Shown: positions 3 to 34,943 of the stretch, one piece after another | Layout: each line of letters opens with the position of its first letter | Position numbering within the stretch: position 1 is the first letter of the stretch | NCBI GenBank assembly: GCA_011390265.1 | Contig: JAABSU010000003.1 | Coordinates: 1 to 39,788, forward strand | Direction: 5' to 3' | DNA from: Spirulina sp. | GTDB lineage: Bacteria; Cyanobacteriota; Cyanobacteriia; Cyanobacteriales; Spirulinaceae | DNA length: 39,788 bases | Made by a program: the position numbers and the translations under genes | The notes under the pieces: model-generated | Databases searched by the model: none | Seen by the model: the letters and a program-made list of their open reading frames with translations, nothing else | What the model was told of the DNA's origin: nothing

Positions 3-746
3 ATTAATGATGGGGCGCTGCGGCGGATCCCCTTGGGGGCATTGCAGGATGGCCAGCGGTTTTTAATTGAAGACTATGCGATCGCCACTACCCCCAGCCT
101 TAGCCTCACGACGGGCGGAACGCCGCAGGATCAGACGGAAATTAAGGCCCTCAGTGTGGGCCTGACGGTGGGCCGGGATGCCTTTGCGCCGTTAAGTAAT
201 GTGGCGCAGGAAATTACCACGGTACAAAGCCTGATGGGGGGGCCGAAGCTCCTGGATCAGGATTTCACGATCGCCAACCTCAGGGAAAACCTTTTAAATG
301 AAGACTTTGCCGTGATCCACATGGCCACCCATGGCAAGTTTGGCATTGATGCGGAAAATACATTTTTGCTGGGCTATGATCAGACGCTGAGTTTGGCGGA
401 ATTGGATAGTATTTTGCGATCGCGGGCCAGTGGCAAAAGCAACCCGCAACCCGTGGCCCTGTTGACGATGAGTGCTTGCCAAACGGCGGCGGGGGATAAC
501 CGTTCGGCCCTGGGGATCGCGGGGGCTGCTGTCCGGGCGGGAGTACAGGCGACCTTAGCAACGTTGTGGTATATCAACGATGAGGCGACGGTTCCCCTGA
601 TTGAGGAGTTTTATCGTCAATGGCGGGGCGGGGCGATCACCAAAGCCGAAGCGTTACGCCGCGCTCAATTGCGGATGATCAATGACCCCAGTTTTAACCA
701 TCCGGCAGTGTGGTCGCCTTTTGTGTTGGTGGGCAATTGGCTTTAG
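3..746 (+). CDS. CHAT domain-containing protein, C-terminal part (truncated by window start)
   Basis: Open frame continues upstream of 33 to the window edge (INDGALRRIPLGALQDG...). CHAT-type catalytic His (VIHMATHGKFG) and Cys (LLTMSACQTAAG) motifs, and C-terminal NHPAVWSPFVLVGNW typical of CHAT domains. Confidence 0.93.
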   Translation: MNDGALRRIPLGALQDGQRFLIEDYAIATTPSLSLTTGGTPQDQTEIKALSVGLTVGRDAFAPLSNVAQEITTVQSLMGGPKLLDQDFTIANLRENLLNEDFAVIHMATHGKFGIDAENTFLLGYDQTLSLAELDSILRSRASGKSNPQPVALLTMSACQTAAGDNRSALGIAGAAVRAGVQATLATLWYINDEATVPLIEEFYRQWRGGAITKAEALRRAQLRMINDPSFNHPAVWSPFVLVGNWL

Positions 747-900
747 GGGATTTGATCTAAGCGTTTCTGATTGGGAGGATCTGGGGGCAGGGATTCCATG
801 GCAAAATATGCAGTACAAGACTCCTTAAATTTAGCGGTATAACTCTGAGCAGTAAAGGCTTGAAGCCCTTTAAGGCTAAGGTGCATATCTGCTTGATTCC

Positions 901-1129
901 GTATAACATTCACCTTTTTAAGGAGTAAAACCCTTACCGGTTAAGGGTTTTGGTGAACCATGAAGTTTTGTATATGGTAGATCTAGCAATTTTTGTATAT
1001 GGTAGATCTAGCAATTTTTGACATCTCAATATTGATGTGCTAGAGTCCTGGTGAGGTTTGGTTATGGAGGGTTCAGCTCCCCAAATCTTAAGTATGTTGG
1101 GCTGCTGATCGCTGCCTAATCAGTAGTTA
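901..1129 (+). repeat. Long structured repeat, copy 1 (candidate non-canonical long attC / cassette-junction repeat)
   Basis: ~95% identical (about 10 substitutions by eye) to 2165-2368 apart from a 25-bp tandem duplication. Starts GTATAAC, ends GTTA, and flanks diverge abruptly on both sides. Internal stems AAAACCCTTA/TAAGGGTTTT, TTCACC/GGTGAA and TCTAGC/GCTAGA. Confidence 0.85.
966..1015 (+). repeat. Perfect 25-bp tandem duplication (TTTTGTATATGGTAGATCTAGCAAT x2) inside repeat copy 1
   Basis: Two adjacent identical 25-mers (966-990 and 991-1015); only one present in copy 2. Confidence 0.95.
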
Positions 1130-1146
1130 TCTAGAACCAGGACAAC

Positions 1147-1776
1147 ATGATATACAAATTAATAAAAACTAAATCCTCACCAGACAAAAGAATACTTGAT
1201 CAACGCAGAGAAGTGTATATTTTAGAGTTTGGCTATGAGGAATGTGAATCAGACCTTTATGACTTGTGGTCATTTCATTATGGGTTAGTTGATGAAAGCG
1301 ATGGTCATGACCCCAAAATTGCCGGATCAGTGAGGATGATAATTAGTAACGAACACGGTTTTCCGTATGAAAAAATACCAAATATTAGCTATTCTATCCC
1401 CAGCCATGTCGTTGAAAAAAGAGGCGTTTCTTCCGAGATATCGCGACTAATAGTATCAAGCGAGAACAGAAAAATGAGAACAGTTTTGTATGAGTTGTTT
1501 AAAGTTATATATCAGGAAAGTAAAATTCAAGGCATATCCGTTTGGTTTATGGTGGCAGAGCCGAAACTAATGAAAACACTAAAAAGAGTTGGAATAAATT
1601 TCAAAGCTGTATCTGATGCATTTTTTTTCAGAGGCGAACGCTGCATTTATTACGCGAGTGTTGAGATAATTGAACAAGATATGCTTAACAAAAACCCCAA
1701 AATGTCTGATTATTTTCTCAACAATTTGCCCGAAATGTTTCACCCAGAAAAATCGACACGAGAAATGCAGGAATAA
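1147..1776 (+). CDS. LuxI/FeeM-like GNAT N-acyltransferase (autoinducer synthase / N-acyl amino acid synthase-like)
   Basis: 209 aa ORF; R..VY..EFGY N-terminal region, acidic segment then GSVRMI, and SSEISRLIV resembling the E-x-SR-x-x-V signature of LuxI-fold acyltransferases. Located immediately before an attC. Confidence 0.65.
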   Translation: MIYKLIKTKSSPDKRILDQRREVYILEFGYEECESDLYDLWSFHYGLVDESDGHDPKIAGSVRMIISNEHGFPYEKIPNISYSIPSHVVEKRGVSSEISRLIVSSENRKMRTVLYELFKVIYQESKIQGISVWFMVAEPKLMKTLKRVGINFKAVSDAFFFRGERCIYYASVEIIEQDMLNKNPKMSDYFLNNLPEMFHPEKSTREMQE

Positions 1777-1792
1777 CACGTAACAATAATTA

Positions 1793-1899
1793 ACATAACA
1801 AGGCGTTCAACGGTGACGTTTTTACGTCGCTCAATTTTGCACTATCTCATAGCACAAAATTAGTCAACTACAAAAACGCCCGTTAACGTGGCGTTAGCT
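1793..1899 (+). other. attC integron recombination site 1 (59-base-element type)
   Basis: R'' ACATAAC (1793-1799), R' GTTAGCT (1893-1899). Arm TAACAAGGCGTTCAACGGTGACGTTTTT pairs with the reverse complement of the right end (TAACGCCACGTTAACGGGCGTTTTT), leaving an unpaired C in CGTT(C)AACGG. Central AATTTTGCACTAT/ATAGCACAAAATT hairpin. Confidence 0.85.
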
Positions 1900-1952
1900 G
1901 GCTCCGCACGTAATCCTTGCACTCGTTGCTTAAATCATTAGGTTGCTTTTTG

Positions 1953-2069
1953 TTTTTAGGTGTGCATCCGATTTTGGATCGCTACACCCATTGAAACCTC
2001 GTGCGATAGATATAAATTTTTGAGCTTGCTCAACATTGCGAATTATTAAGGTGGCGCTGCACCTAAAAA
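1953..2069. repeat. Inverted repeat in non-coding cassette region
   Basis: TTTTTAGGTGTGC (1953-1965) versus GCACCTAAAAA (2059-2069), with an inner ATCC/GGAT stem; no credible ORF between 1900 and 2164. Confidence 0.6.
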
Positions 2070-2164
2070 TATATCTGAATCCTGAAAACCTTGCTGGATA
2101 ACACTTTCAGGGACTCGATTTTTGTATGCACATCAAAAAAACAATGTCAACCTGCGGAATATTG

Positions 2165-2368
2165 GTATAACATTCACCTTTTTAAGGACTAAAACCCTTA
2201 CCAGTTAAGGGTTTTGATGAACCATGAAGTTTTGTATATGGTAGATCTAGCAATTTTTGACACCTCAATATTGATGTGCTAGAGTCCCGGTAAGGCTTGG
2301 TTATGGAGGGTTCAGCTCCCCAAATCTTAGGTATGTTGGGCTGCTAATCGCTGCCTAATCAATAGTTA
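2165..2368 (+). repeat. Long structured repeat, copy 2 (candidate non-canonical long attC / cassette-junction repeat)
   Basis: ~95% identical to 901-1129 minus the 25-bp duplication; starts GTATAAC, ends at GTTA (followed by GCC, so GTTAGCC fits GTTRRRY approximately). Confidence 0.85.
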
Positions 2369-2384
2369 GCCCTACAAAATTATC

Positions 2385-2807
2385 ATGGGTAAACAGATTG
2401 TTCTTATTTCATGTGTGAGTCAGAAGCTAGGGCAGCGAGCAAAGGCGAAGGATCTTTATGTGAGTACACTTTTCAAGCTGAATCTTAGATATGCTCAAAA
2501 ACTAGCCCCAGACGAAATTCTTATTCTGTCAGCAAAGCACGGTCTACTATCATTAGATCAAGAAATTGACCCCTATGAACAGACCCTTAAAACCATACCC
2601 GCCCTTGAGGTTAAGCAATGGGCTGATCAAGTTCTAGGTCAAATTCGTGCAAAATGCTCTATTGACGAGACGGCTTTCATTTTTCTTGCAGGGGAAAGAT
2701 ACAGGAAATATTTACTACCACACTTGAAGAATGTACAGATTCCTCTAAAGGGTTTAGGTATCGGAAGACAACTGCAAAAATTGAAAGAGTTAATTGATGA
2801 GTACTGA
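2385..2807 (+). CDS. DUF6884 domain-containing protein
   Basis: LISCVSQKL...AKDLYVSTLF...LILSAKHGLLSLDQEIDPYEQTL matches the DUF6884 pattern (SC-x-K, A-DLY-S-LF, SAK-GLL, pY-xTL). Confidence 0.85.
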   Translation: MGKQIVLISCVSQKLGQRAKAKDLYVSTLFKLNLRYAQKLAPDEILILSAKHGLLSLDQEIDPYEQTLKTIPALEVKQWADQVLGQIRAKCSIDETAFIFLAGERYRKYLLPHLKNVQIPLKGLGIGRQLQKLKELIDEY

Positions 2808-3432
2808 ATGCACAGAAATCCATAAAATCACTAATAGCATTGGGCGACATGGATTTCCTTTTGATGAGACGAGAATACCCCTCAATGGAATTTATATTCT
2901 GTTTCAAAAAGGTGAGAAGGCTCATGGACAGGACAGAATTGTGAGGATCGGTACTCATACTGGTGATCACCAACTCCGTCCAAGACTGAAACAACACTTT
3001 CTAAGTGAGAATAAAGACCGTAGTATCTTTAGGAAGAATATTGGTAGAGCGCTCTTGAAGAAGCAGAATGATCCATTTCTTCAGTTGTGGGAACTTGATC
3101 TCACAACTCGAAAAGCGAAAGATAACTACTCGCAGCAGATTGATTTTGACTACCAACAAAAAATTGAAAGTCAGGTTAGTAAGTACATTCGCGATAATTT
3201 CTCCTTTGGTGTATTTGAAGTTGCAAGCAAAGAAGAACGCTTAGAGATTGAGTCTAAACTCATCTCAACTGTATCTTGGTGTGATGAGTGTAAGCCTTCT
3301 AGCGCTTGGCTTGGGAACAGTTCACCCAAGGAAAAGGTTGTTCAGAGTGGTTTATGGTTAGTAAATGAGCTTTATAAAACCCCATGTAATGCTTCAGATA
3401 TTGAACACTTATCTCGGCTCATTGATGGCTAA
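2797..3432 (+). CDS. GIY-YIG-type nuclease-like protein
   Basis: NGIYILF...RIVRIGTHTG...LRPRLKQHF...SIFRKNIGRALL, with later E (RLEIESKLI) and N (WLGNSSP) in GIY-YIG order. ATG start overlaps the upstream stop (translational coupling). ORF track starts at TTG 2794. Confidence 0.75.
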   Translation: MSTECTEIHKITNSIGRHGFPFDETRIPLNGIYILFQKGEKAHGQDRIVRIGTHTGDHQLRPRLKQHFLSENKDRSIFRKNIGRALLKKQNDPFLQLWELDLTTRKAKDNYSQQIDFDYQQKIESQVSKYIRDNFSFGVFEVASKEERLEIESKLISTVSWCDECKPSSAWLGNSSPKEKVVQSGLWLVNELYKTPCNASDIEHLSRLIDG

Positions 3433-3519
3433 CAAATCATTGGAGCGGACGGATGTTGTATTCTCGTGGTGAGTTGAAGGTTGAATGCTTCTCGTCGCCG
3501 CTCAATTCAACCGTTATAC
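3427..3519 (+). other. attC integron recombination site 2
   Basis: R'' GGCTAAC (3427-3433, contains the TAA stop of the upstream gene), R' GTTATAC (3513-3519). TAACAAATCATTGGAGCGGACG pairs with the reverse complement of CGTCGCCGCTCAATTCAACCGTTA, leaving an unpaired G in ATT(G)GAGCGG. Confidence 0.8.
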
Positions 3520-3703
3520 TGCGGCGGGTTTTTCTCATTATTTGGCTCTGCCTCCCTCCCCCCAACAGGCGGCAGAACCGCCTAATACCCATGCCATGGC
3601 TCTGCCATAGCACGAGATAAAATTTTCAGAAACAAGAAACATTCCTTTTGTCAAAGTCTGTTAAATCTGTATAGAATTGAGGTGATAAGAACTAAATCAA
3701 CCT

Positions 3704-4033
3704 ATGCCTGTTTTAGCACCTAAATCTTATGTAGAGTATCGGAATGATGCTTATCGGGTAGAGGGAACTCGAATTTCCCTCGATTCCATCGTCTATGCTT
3801 TTCAAAAAGGACTATCCCCTGAAAGCATTGTTCAATCTTTTCCATTGCTAACCCTTGAACAGGTTTATGGCGCGATCGCATTTTATCTTGCCAATCGTGC
3901 TGAGATCGACACTTATTTAGCAGTCGAAGAAACAGCTTTCGACGCTATGCCTCAACCGCTAGAAACCACTGATCCTGTTTTGTATGGCAAACTGATGGCG
4001 GCTAAGACAGCAAGGCAGCAGGTAGAATCGTGA
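3704..4033 (+). CDS. DUF433 domain-containing protein (putative antitoxin)
   Basis: YRVEGTRISLDSIVYAFQKGLSPESIVQSFPLLTLEQVYGAIAFYLANRAEIDTYL is a classic DUF433 sequence; overlaps the downstream DUF5615-type gene. Confidence 0.9.
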   Translation: MPVLAPKSYVEYRNDAYRVEGTRISLDSIVYAFQKGLSPESIVQSFPLLTLEQVYGAIAFYLANRAEIDTYLAVEETAFDAMPQPLETTDPVLYGKLMAAKTARQQVES

Positions 4034-4380
4034 TCGTTTGTTATCAAGCCGATGCCGATTTAAACCAGGCAATTGTCACAGGGGTTTTACGACGAGAACC
4101 AACAATTGACTTTCAAACTGCCTTTGCCGCTGGATTGGAAGGTGTCCAAGATCCAGAAGTATTAGCAATTGCTGCACAACAGGAACGTATTCTGGTCAGC
4201 CATGATCGTAGAACAATGCCATTGGAGTTCGCCACGTTTATTACCAGCAGCCAAAGCTCAGGAATTATCATCGTTTCCAGAAAGCTAGCGATTGAAGTGG
4301 TTATCGAGGAATTGCTGCTGATTTGGGCAGCATCCAGTGCAGAGGAGTGGGTCAATCGTATTGCAAAGCTACCCCTTTGA
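4030..4380 (+). CDS. DUF5615 family PIN-like protein (putative toxin)
   Basis: MIVCYQADADLNQAIVTGVLRREPTIDFQTAFAAGLEGVQDPEVLAIAAQQERILVSHDRRTMP, PIN-like with conserved Asp residues; 4-bp overlap with DUF433 gene. Confidence 0.88.
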   Translation: MIVCYQADADLNQAIVTGVLRREPTIDFQTAFAAGLEGVQDPEVLAIAAQQERILVSHDRRTMPLEFATFITSSQSSGIIIVSRKLAIEVVIEELLLIWAASSAEEWVNRIAKLPL

Positions 4381-4407
4381 CTCAGAAACCCTAGGAGAGC
4401 GATCGCT

Positions 4408-4605
4408 GTGGTTTCTATAAGAATTGATCTTTCGGACAGCCAATTCCAAAAACCACAAAAGTTAGCAAGAGTGCATGGCATTGCGACTGAAGTGCCTTTG
4501 AAGGCAAGCTTAGAAGATTGGCTAAATCTACAAAAAGGCGATTTTGTTGATGCAGTCGATCATGTGTTGGAGAAAAATGCTAAATTATATCGGTGTTTGG
4601 CATGA
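4408..4605 (+). CDS. Small antitoxin-like protein (family usually preceding Doc/Fic-type toxins); orphan here
   Basis: IRIDLSDSQFQKPQKLARVHGI...LKASLEDWLNLQKGDFVDAVDHVLEKNAKLYRCLA; GTG start; no partner toxin ORF follows. Confidence 0.6.
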   Translation: MVSIRIDLSDSQFQKPQKLARVHGIATEVPLKASLEDWLNLQKGDFVDAVDHVLEKNAKLYRCLA

Positions 4606-4627
4606 TCCACTATTTGACAATAAATCC

Positions 4628-4852
4628 ATGCCCAGGAAGATTCGAGAGTTGAAAGCCCAGATTGCGCGTGAAGGATTTGTTTACTTGCCCAAACGCGGCA
4701 AAGGGAGCCATGAACGTTGGCGACATCCTTTGATCGGAAAAACACTAACAATTCCCGGCAAGGATGGAGATGATGTTCCACTTTACCTCGAAAAACAACT
4801 AGAAAATTTACTCACTGTACTGGAAGAGTTAAGAGAGGACGAGGATTCATGA
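4628..4852 (+). CDS. hicA: HicA family toxin
   Basis: PRKIRELKAQIAREGFVYLPKRGKGSHERWRHPLIGKTLTIPGKDGDDVPLYLEKQL contains the HicA GSH(ERW) core. Start chosen at MPRKIREL (4628) rather than track start 4544. Confidence 0.85.
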   Translation: MPRKIRELKAQIAREGFVYLPKRGKGSHERWRHPLIGKTLTIPGKDGDDVPLYLEKQLENLLTVLEELREDEDS

Positions 4853-5067
4853 ATCGATATAGCATGATTGTTCAGTGGTCTGATGAAGATGAGCTTTTCT
4901 TGGTTACAATTCCGGAGTTTACTGATCTTGTCGTCATGCCTTGCACTCACGGAAAAACTCGTGAAGAAGCAATTCATAACGGTGAAGAAGTCATAGAAAT
5001 GTATTTGGAATCTTGGCAGGCAGAAGGCGAACCTATACCTGAACCGAGGACGCTTCAGGTTGCCTAA
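4849..5067 (+). CDS. hicB: HicB family antitoxin
   Basis: YSMIVQWSDEDELFLVTIPEFTDLVVMPCTHGKTREEAIHNGEEVIEMYLES is the HicB partial RNase-H fold; 4-bp overlap with hicA. Confidence 0.9.
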   Translation: MNRYSMIVQWSDEDELFLVTIPEFTDLVVMPCTHGKTREEAIHNGEEVIEMYLESWQAEGEPIPEPRTLQVA

Positions 5068-5094
5068 TGATTGTGGTAAGGTTGTCGGTGATCT

Positions 5095-10901: not shown

Positions 10902-12044
10902 TTAACGATAGACCGGCAAAGTAAATTGGAAGCAACTCCCCTTTTGGGGTGTGCTATCCACCCAAATATTGCCATAGTGGGCCTGGATCACCTTCCGACA
11001 GAGGGCTAAACCGATCCCAAAACCCTCTTGGGCTTCGTCGCGTTTGAGGCGAAAATGCCCTTCAAAAATTAAATCCCGCTTCTCTGGGGGAATGCCTAAG
11101 CCTGTATCTGTGACACTAATTTGGACTTTTTGGGCCGTGCGGTGCAGAATTGCCAGGGTGATCGTGCCTTGGGGCGGGGTGTATTTAATCGCATTTTCAA
11201 GGAGATTAATCAACACTTGGCGAATTAATTCCCCATCGGCATAAACCACAGGTAAATCCTGGGGAATATCTTGAACGAGGGTTAAATCCTTGGCGGTAAA
11301 GCGAGCGGTTAACTGGCTGAGGACATCTTCACAAAGGGGTTGGAGTTGTAAGCTGCGCAGTTGCAAGTTTAGGCCGCTGTTTTTGCCCTGGGCCGCCTGC
11401 AAAATATCGTTGATCATCCGGTTCATCACCCGGAATTGGGTGCGGGCGTGTTTATAAAGTTGGTGTTTTAATTGGGCGGCGCGTTCGGGGTCTTCGTGGG
11501 TGTGGGCCAGTTCGAGGGTTTCGACGGCGATCGCCGCCGCCGTTAACGGACTCCGCAAATCATGGGCCAACATCGCCAACACCTGATCCTTAAATTGCAA
11601 TTGCTCATTGAGTTCGGCATTTTCCCGCTTGAGGCGAAACAGATCCTCCGCTAAACGAATTTGGGCCACAGAATAGCGATCGCTCTCCGCCTGATCCCCC
11701 GCCTGACTATTGACATCCCGCTGCCACTGGGGCCACCACCGCTTCACCTGGGCCACCAAATCCCCCCCCGCCAAGGTTTGGCGCGGGGCCGGGTAAATTT
11801 TCACCAAAGAAGGGGCCGCCACCAACCGAAAATGCTCCGCCAGATCAGGATTCTCGCTAATTTCCAGAATCTCCAATCCAAAGTCATGCTGTTGCTGTAA
11901 CCCCTGCAAATAGGCTTGAATTTCCTGGGCATAGCCTTGGGTTGCCACCCGCTCATCCACAAACAGCAGCAGCTTCAGATGGTCGGAAGTCTCCAATGGC
12001 GGCGTAACACAGGAAGTCGGCTCAGGGGGGTTAGAAGATCGCAC
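10902..12044 (-). CDS. sasA: Circadian-type sensor histidine kinase SasA
   Basis: N-terminal KaiB-like thioredoxin-fold domain (LKLLLFVDERVATQGYAQEIQAYLQGLQQQHDFGLEILEISENPDLAEHFRLVAAPSLVKIYPAPRQTLAG), then HisKA (MLAHDLRSPLTAAAIAVETLEL) and HATPase. Confidence 0.93.
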   Translation of the reverse strand: MRSSNPPEPTSCVTPPLETSDHLKLLLFVDERVATQGYAQEIQAYLQGLQQQHDFGLEILEISENPDLAEHFRLVAAPSLVKIYPAPRQTLAGGDLVAQVKRWWPQWQRDVNSQAGDQAESDRYSVAQIRLAEDLFRLKRENAELNEQLQFKDQVLAMLAHDLRSPLTAAAIAVETLELAHTHEDPERAAQLKHQLYKHARTQFRVMNRMINDILQAAQGKNSGLNLQLRSLQLQPLCEDVLSQLTARFTAKDLTLVQDIPQDLPVVYADGELIRQVLINLLENAIKYTPPQGTITLAILHRTAQKVQISVTDTGLGIPPEKRDLIFEGHFRLKRDEAQEGFGIGLALCRKVIQAHYGNIWVDSTPQKGSCFQFTLPVYR

Positions 12045-33692: not shown

Positions 33693-34943
33693 ATGAAACG
33701 CCCCATCGCCATCGACCTGTTTGCAGGATGTGGCGGCATGTCCCTCGGCCTAGAAGCCGCCGGATTTGATATCGCCGCCGCCGTCGAACTTGATCCAATT
33801 CATACATTAGTTCACCACTTTAACTTCCCCTACGGAGCAAGCATTTGTAAAAATATTTCTGAATTAAATCCTCAAGATTTGCTACAGGCTTTAAAAAACA
33901 AAAAAATTGATCGTGAAATAGACCTCATTGCAGGCGGGCCACCCTGCCAAGGCTTTTCCCACATGGGCAAACGACAACTAGACGACCCCAGAAACACCCT
34001 CATCTTTGAATACCTGCGCATCATCAAAACCATCAAACCTAAATATTTTCTCTTTGAAAACGTCCCCGGCATCGCCTCCGGCCAACATCAAAAATTCTTA
34101 ACAGAATTAATCATTGAATTTGAAAACATCGGCTACTCAATTCAAAAACCCATCGCAATCCTAAACGCATCCCATTACGGTGCGCCCCAAAATCGGAAAA
34201 GACTAATCCTCATCGGCTCCAGACTCGACGTTAATCCAGCCGCCTACCCCCCACAAACCCATTTAGACATCAACACCAGGGCAACCTGTGAACAAGCCAT
34301 TGGCGATCTAAGCACACACCCCCCCTATCACAAAAATGATCCAGGCATTCCAGCCTCACAATTAAACTATGCCGGCCTAAGAACCCACTTTGCCCTCCAA
34401 CCCAGCGGCGAATTTAACCTCTGCCATCAGCGACAAATTGGCCCCCTCGTTTATGGCCACATCGGATCAAACCATACCCAAAAATCAAGCGATCGCTTTC
34501 AAACAACCCCCCTCGGAACCGTCGAAACAATCAGTCGATTCTTTAAACTGTCCCCCCATGGCCAATGTAATACCCTCAGAGCCGGAACCACCAGCGACAA
34601 AGGAGCCTATACCGCCCCTAGACCCATTCATTATGGCGCTCCTCGCTGTATTACCGTTAGAGAAGCAGCAAGATTGCACACCTTCCCCGATTGGTTTCGG
34701 TTTCATAATACTATTTGGCACGGCTTTCGAGAAATTGGTAACGCCGTAGTTCCCTTGCTCGCCAAAGCCTTAGGGTGTGAAATCATCAAAGCCATGGGCC
34801 TGAATCCCCAAGAATTTAAAACCTATACCCTCAGCCCACAGGATGAAACACTGTTAGGCTATAACATGGCCCAAGCCTCAAAATATTGGAATATTCCAGA
34901 TAACGTCATTCCCAAACGGAAAAGATCGATCTCAACGCCCTAA
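33693..34943 (+). CDS. DNA (cytosine-5-)-methyltransferase
   Basis: DLFAGCGGMSLGLEAAGF (I), GGPPCQGFSHMGKRQLDDPRN (IV), FENVPG (VI), QNRKRLILIGSR (VIII), REAARLHTFPDWF (IX), IGNAVVPLLAKALG (X). Confidence 0.97.
   Translation: MKRPIAIDLFAGCGGMSLGLEAAGFDIAAAVELDPIHTLVHHFNFPYGASICKNISELNPQDLLQALKNKKIDREIDLIAGGPPCQGFSHMGKRQLDDPRNTLIFEYLRIIKTIKPKYFLFENVPGIASGQHQKFLTELIIEFENIGYSIQKPIAILNASHYGAPQNRKRLILIGSRLDVNPAAYPPQTHLDINTRATCEQAIGDLSTHPPYHKNDPGIPASQLNYAGLRTHFALQPSGEFNLCHQRQIGPLVYGHIGSNHTQKSSDRFQTTPLGTVETISRFFKLSPHGQCNTLRAGTTSDKGAYTAPRPIHYGAPRCITVREAARLHTFPDWFRFHNTIWHGFREIGNAVVPLLAKALGCEIIKAMGLNPQEFKTYTLSPQDETLLGYNMAQASKYWNIPDNVIPKRKRSISTP

Follow-up and report, generated by a model that had tools for sequence, protein, structure and literature searches.

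Organization of the island

The window, that is, the whole 39,788-nucleotide stretch analysed here, is contig C227 of a Spirulina sp. genome of 3.57 Mb (343 contigs, 83% complete). An island at positions 748-5081 lies between a CHAT-domain gene, which shows 90% DNA identity to the sister genome G001 (contig C303) up to position 749, and host DNA beside glyS, where the homology to G001 resumes at position 5082. Between these edges we found, from left to right, a stub of the integrase gene intI, a first integron head, a cassette with an acyltransferase gene and a site named attC A, a non-coding remnant, a second head, a cassette with two overlapping genes and a site named attC B, and a tail with two further gene pairs (Table 1). 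Elsewhere in the window, a KaiB-domain histidine kinase that resembles the clock output kinase SasA (10902-12044) and a C-5 cytosine-specific DNA methylase (33693-34943) are encoded.

Table 1. Features of the island and its left flank, with positions in the window.
Feature	Position	Strand	Remarks
CHAT-domain gene, 3' part	3..746	+	Left flank of the island, host side; Pfam CHAT E 7.5e-52
intI stub	743..799	-	First 18 codons (MESLPPDPPNQKRLDQIP) and stop
Integron head 1 (W1)	800..1126	+	intI leader, divergent promoter region, attI; core G 1126^TT
Predicted Pc promoter, head 1	1018..1046	+	TTGACA-17-TAGAGT, extended TG; conserved in aligned heads
Cassette 1	1127..1893	+	Between attI G^TT and attC A core
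Cassette 1 gene, GNAT/FeeM-type acyltransferase	1147..1776	+	Resembles PEP-CTERM/exosortase-associated acyltransferases
attC A (probable)	1793..1899	+	Scanner, covariance model; bottom-strand DNA fold z -3.3
Non-coding remnant	1894..2164	+	Between attC A and head 2
Integron head 2 (W2)	2165..2365	+	attI and Pc present a second time, without the intI part; core G 2365^TT
Predicted Pc promoter, head 2	2257..2285	+	TTGACA-17-TAGAGT, extended -10
Cassette 2	2366..3513	+	Boundaries shared with the relatives from Marinomonas and the verrucomicrobial MAG
Cassette 2 gene a, DUF6884 = PDC-M57A	2385..2807	+	Pfam 4.8e-43; PADLOC 1.1e-56
Cassette 2 gene b, PDC-M57B	2794..3432	+	PADLOC 5e-99
attC B	3427..3519	+	Overlaps M57B stop codon; 59.1 bits, E 1.1e-13
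Island tail	3514..5081	+	DUF433/DUF5615 pair 3704-4380, HicAB 4544-5067

Integron heads and the integrase stub

The two long repeats at positions 901-1129 and 2165-2368 are 94-97% identical where aligned. A search of related genomes with the repeat led to a copy in genome G011 (G011:C2:3469455-3469660), which is situated upstream of, and divergent from, an intact integrase gene that matches TIGR02249 with 470 bits. Head 1 is 79% identical to the G011 DNA upstream of this intact intI, and head 2 is 90% identical to the intI-proximal head of G011. By this homology, the long repeats are two copies of an integron head, comprising the Pint/Pc region and attI. A preliminary description of this DNA had taken the repeats, with their GTATAAC and GTTA ends, as two further cassette junctions; the repeats are real, but they are heads and not junctions of the attC type. 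Their reading as long attC sites was likewise dropped once the head homology appeared. The Pc promoters, predicted from sequence only, carry TTGACA-17-TAGAGT at 1018 and 2257 and point toward the cassettes in both heads. A 25-bp tandem duplication, which includes the palindrome TAGATCTA, was observed in head 1 at positions 963-1019; the palindrome sits between the two divergent promoters of this head and is a possible operator.

The intI stub, read on the minus strand from 799 to 743, has MESLPPDPPKRKLLDQV as its counterpart in G011, and a tblastn search with the intact G011 IntI aligned 17 amino acids at 76%. The homology to the heads of G011 and G049 starts at position 748 and the CHAT homology to G001 stops at 749, which indicates that intI was deleted except for its first 18 codons. 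The earlier remark that the window holds no integrase ORF is borne out, with this stub as the trace that is left at the edge of head 1.

attC sites and cassette boundaries

A scanner for attC geometry, based on the R''/L''/L'/R' arrangement and one extrahelical base, gave scores of 38.5 at 1793-1899 (attC A) and 43.0 at 3427-3519 (attC B) on the plus strand; it replaced a first scan on structure alone, which was too noisy. Scores of 38 or more were found neither in dinucleotide shuffles nor in 0.46 Mb-strands of real array-free sequence, and 300 shuffles of the island reached a maximum of 37.8. In a covariance model trained on nine attC sites, all from outside the window, attC B obtained 59.1 bits (E 1.1e-13), while attC A obtained 13 bits (E 0.36) and ranked second in the window with exact ends. 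The attC architecture with its extrahelical base is thus recognized in attC B by a model built from outside and in attC A by geometry. The folds of the whole bottom strands gave z -3.3 for attC A and z -0.3 for attC B, and an Rfam scan matched no attC or other family. The two stem arms directly 3' of genes in the same orientation, as first described, were recovered with coordinates matching to the base. Judged by the covariance model, attC B is certainly a real attC site.

attC A is probably a real attC site as well, on the grounds of its structure, its position and its complementarity to the cassette start. It is improbable that attC A is a chance hairpin and cassette 2 the sole true cassette: the 13 bits in the covariance model and the lack of similar attC DNA on plasmids, where attC B had no useful match either, would fit a chance hairpin, but the scanner score is unequalled in the array-free sequence and the island shuffles, the site lies on the same strand as the acyltransferase gene and 16 nt past its stop codon, and its R'' (ACATAAC) fits the start of its own cassette (GTTATCT) at 6/7 positions.

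When ten heads, taken from this genome and from related ones, are aligned on the attI core, their identity is 79% to the left of G^TT over 25 nt and 32% to its right. The similarity among the heads runs as far as AG^TT and is lost past it; this is therefore where the cassettes begin, inserted at the G^TT core of attI. A comparison of strains for breakpoints at G^TT had been suggested at the outset, and the sister G001 differs at exactly this point; there, the same CHAT gene leads into an attI remnant, and from AG^TT onward the cassette is a different one. The start of cassette 2 (GTTAGCC) is the exact complement of the R'' of its own attC (GGCTAAC), and the sequence after cassette 2 starts with GTTATAC, which is not complementary to this R''. 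At the level of sequence, such complementarity to the own R'' is the mark that a cassette circle leaves when opened at G^TT.

Gene content of the cassettes and the tail

The acyltransferase of cassette 1 obtained 82.7 bits against TIGR03694, under the cut-off of 112, and 23.8 bits against FeeM, also under the cut-off. None of the 385 other cyanobacterial genomes sampled contains a match to it at the E-value used. In the non-coding remnant that follows, the attC of whatever came after cassette 1 is missing, and the final ~35 nt resemble a further head type, with 86% identity over 35 nt to G001:C303:630-664.

Cassette 2 encodes adjacent M57A and M57B proteins and is a candidate phage-defence gene pair, PDC-M57AB. 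The same 385 genomes likewise gave no match to the pair at the E-values used. Relatives of M57B were found at 41 bacterial and archaeal loci, and a Pseudanabaena MAG holds the closest of them (75%). The M57B stop codon marks the start of an attC in three genomes, those of Marinomonas communis, a verrucomicrobial MAG and a Nitrotoga MAG; the R'' is GGCTAAC in the first two, where the cassette start also comes after G^TTAGCCC, and an equivalent in the third. The scores of these sites are modest, with 16.7-18 bits in the model (Marinomonas, verrucomicrobial) and 31-38 in the scanner (Marinomonas, Nitrotoga). At the remaining relative loci no attC was detectable 3' of M57B, which indicates that the pair also lives outside integrons. 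The candidate defence pair therefore occurs across phyla, as an integron cassette in some hosts.

Past attC B, no attC was recognized in the tail (3514-5081), and none closes it. The DUF433/DUF5615 pair is likely a toxin-antitoxin-like module without a recognized attC of its own. It is followed by a HicAB-like toxin-antitoxin pair that is ~90% identical to integron-array copies in G011 and G049, the former inside a multi-attC, multi-head array. The neighbouring host gene glyS is only 65% identical to that of G011, compared with ~90% for HicAB, which shows that cassette-region DNA has been exchanged between genera.

Heads and attC sites in this and related genomes

The proposed genome-wide search for intI and further copies was carried out on the 83% complete assembly, and gave no match to TIGR02249 over the cut-off and no intact intI, either in the window or in the rest of this genome. 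At least nine heads were found, comprising C109-type heads on contigs C109, C76, C91 and C321 and five heads of the W type, and six attC sites at E <0.001 in the covariance model are located on C109, C81, C227, C91 and C321. Integrase remnants persist on three further contigs, as a 69-codon N-terminal intI pseudogene beside an attI and an attC on C109, an N-terminal piece and a middle piece on C321, and an 18-codon piece on C91. The sister genomes have kept an intact intI.

Among 59 related genomes, 17 match TIGR02249 at E <1e-20 with an intact or broken gene, and 44 contain attC matches. The initial view that cassettes are sparse in cyanobacteria thus fails in this clade, and an attC model specific to Cyanobacteria was published in 2021 (PMC8352920). 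The G011 array runs attC-HicAB-head-attC-attC-head-attC-head, and G049 carries three heads within ~7 kb; the array of G006, tried for the presence or absence of heads, shares little with that of G011. Many attC sites in the related genomes lie widely scattered along the chromosome, often as solitary sites, for example in the complete genomes G019, G021 and G044, and may represent natural cassette insertion at non-classical genomic sites.

Repeated blocks were also observed. A block starting with TTAAATCTTATCAAGG has its exact start at an attC-like G^TT in six copies from three genera, at loci L148 (G011), L091 and L169 (this genome, C91 and C76) and L060 (G049), and looks like a repeated cassette. 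Another block, starting at G^TTAAATCTTATC, was considered as the left half of a mobile head unit and rejected; it is found apart from heads and in other orders and is therefore treated as a repeated cassette. At locus L008 (C321), a murJ-like gene is represented by two copies of its 3' end (418-700 and 2430-2640), one right after an attC core (CG^TTAGATCGCCCC) and the other the gene's own end, separated by ~1.9 kb of inserted genes.

Formation of the island

Region 748-5081 is very probably a decayed chromosomal integron whose cassettes reached attI by IntI-type recombination. An ancestral integron like the intact one of G011, with intI directed leftward and Pc and attI rightward, would have been present at the locus or have come to it, and a deletion would have taken intI except its first 18 codons, whereas Pc and attI stayed. 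The cassettes would have been inserted by attC x attI recombination at AG^TT, each behind the head of its own number, most likely by an IntI that acted before the loss of the local gene or in trans; an IntI supplied in trans could still move them. Pc would still drive the first gene behind each attI. Each cassette gene starts ~20 nt past the attI core and ~130 nt past the start of a near-consensus Pc, and the cassette genes are therefore probably expressed without an integrase.

The locus had originally been described as an integrase-less, CALIN-like cassette array. The cassettes, the attC sites and the missing integrase stand, and two attC sites less than 4 kb apart (attC A being weak in the covariance model) with no integrase nearby do correspond to a CALIN; the island is, however, a truncated integron with two heads and not a simple CALIN. 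In a plain CALIN, the cassettes would have been inserted off-target and the long repeats would be additional cassette junctions or else long attC sites; the two attC sites 1.6 kb apart, the absent integrase ORF and the repeats that start with GTATAAC and finish with GTTA would all be accommodated. We regard this as very unlikely, because W1 is joined to the intI stub and the repeats align with the intI-proximal attI/Pc DNA of G011; moreover, the repeat ends form no attC-like L''/L' stem by eye.

For a decayed integron with two heads, there are even chances that head 2 arose by homologous or illegitimate recombination among dispersed remnants, or by uptake of integron fragments, with subsequent random intI deletions. 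The variable stub lengths, the heterogeneous left edges and the blocks shared between arrays in altered order are consistent with this origin, but ordinary recombination alone leaves the heads between cassettes inside arrays unexplained. The interleaving of heads with attC sites in G011 and G049, the at least nine heads in this genome, a G049 head with a 32-codon stub that starts directly at the cassette end CAATCG^TT, and the recombination of attI-type cassettes in class 1 and 2 integrons (PMC12901181) would instead suit a head (Pc and attI) that is a mobile unit moved by IntI as an attI-type cassette, with W2 having come in this way. Such an arrival of W2 is nevertheless unlikely: the left edge of the head lies at a G^TT recombination core in G049a but not in W1, C91, C109 or W2, most stubs break elsewhere, and W2 starts at GTATAAC beside a piece of another head. 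IntI-made head cassettes were accordingly rejected as the general origin of heads, with which the left edges disagree, and ordinary recombination among remnants together with random deletion is the safer account. It is a tentative and rather doubtful proposal that integrase-stripped heads are themselves mobile in these cyanobacteria, producing multi-head arrays whose captured cassettes would each gain a promoter and docking site and could be exchanged by an outside integrase. If true, each arrival of an IntI-moved head would plant a new promoter and docking site before a cassette.

Comparison with known systems

Large-integron arrays are mostly silent away from their single Pc. Where a genome has at least nine heads and no intact integrase was found, as here, the cassettes in first position would be expressed at many loci and could stay fixed, and the spread of platforms, not only of cassettes, becomes testable. 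Integrons are on record for Cyanobacteria (PMC8618304); the unusual part is the many integrase-less heads, some of them inside arrays, and the searchable open-access papers yielded no description of a genome in which attI/Pc heads without an integrase are numerous and several of them lie in arrays.

That chromosomal integrons can carry defence cassettes is established for Vibrio (reviewed in PMC12409362). Both proteins of cassette 2 match PDC-M57AB of PADLOC with very low E-values, and the difference is that the pair here is an integron cassette in a cyanobacterium.

The island shares attI, Pc and attC-bounded promoterless cassettes at G^TT with sedentary chromosomal integrons, and the sister genomes hold an intact intI, but here intI is reduced to 18 codons, two heads lie within 1.3 kb and the genome has at least nine. 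In common with CALINs, it has two attC sites and no integrase nearby; however, it retains two attI/Pc heads and an intI stub. Arrays that survive beside a truncated intI have been described in Xanthomonas (PMC12444791), where integrase loss or truncation with persisting cassettes, and CALINs elsewhere in the genome, are shared features, in contrast to the many dispersed heads found here instead of one platform at one locus. The attI-type cassettes of class 1 and 2 integrons similarly have an attI copy between cassettes, whereas the copy in this island spans the whole Pc region, belongs to cyanobacterial chromosomal arrays, and is of putative mobility.
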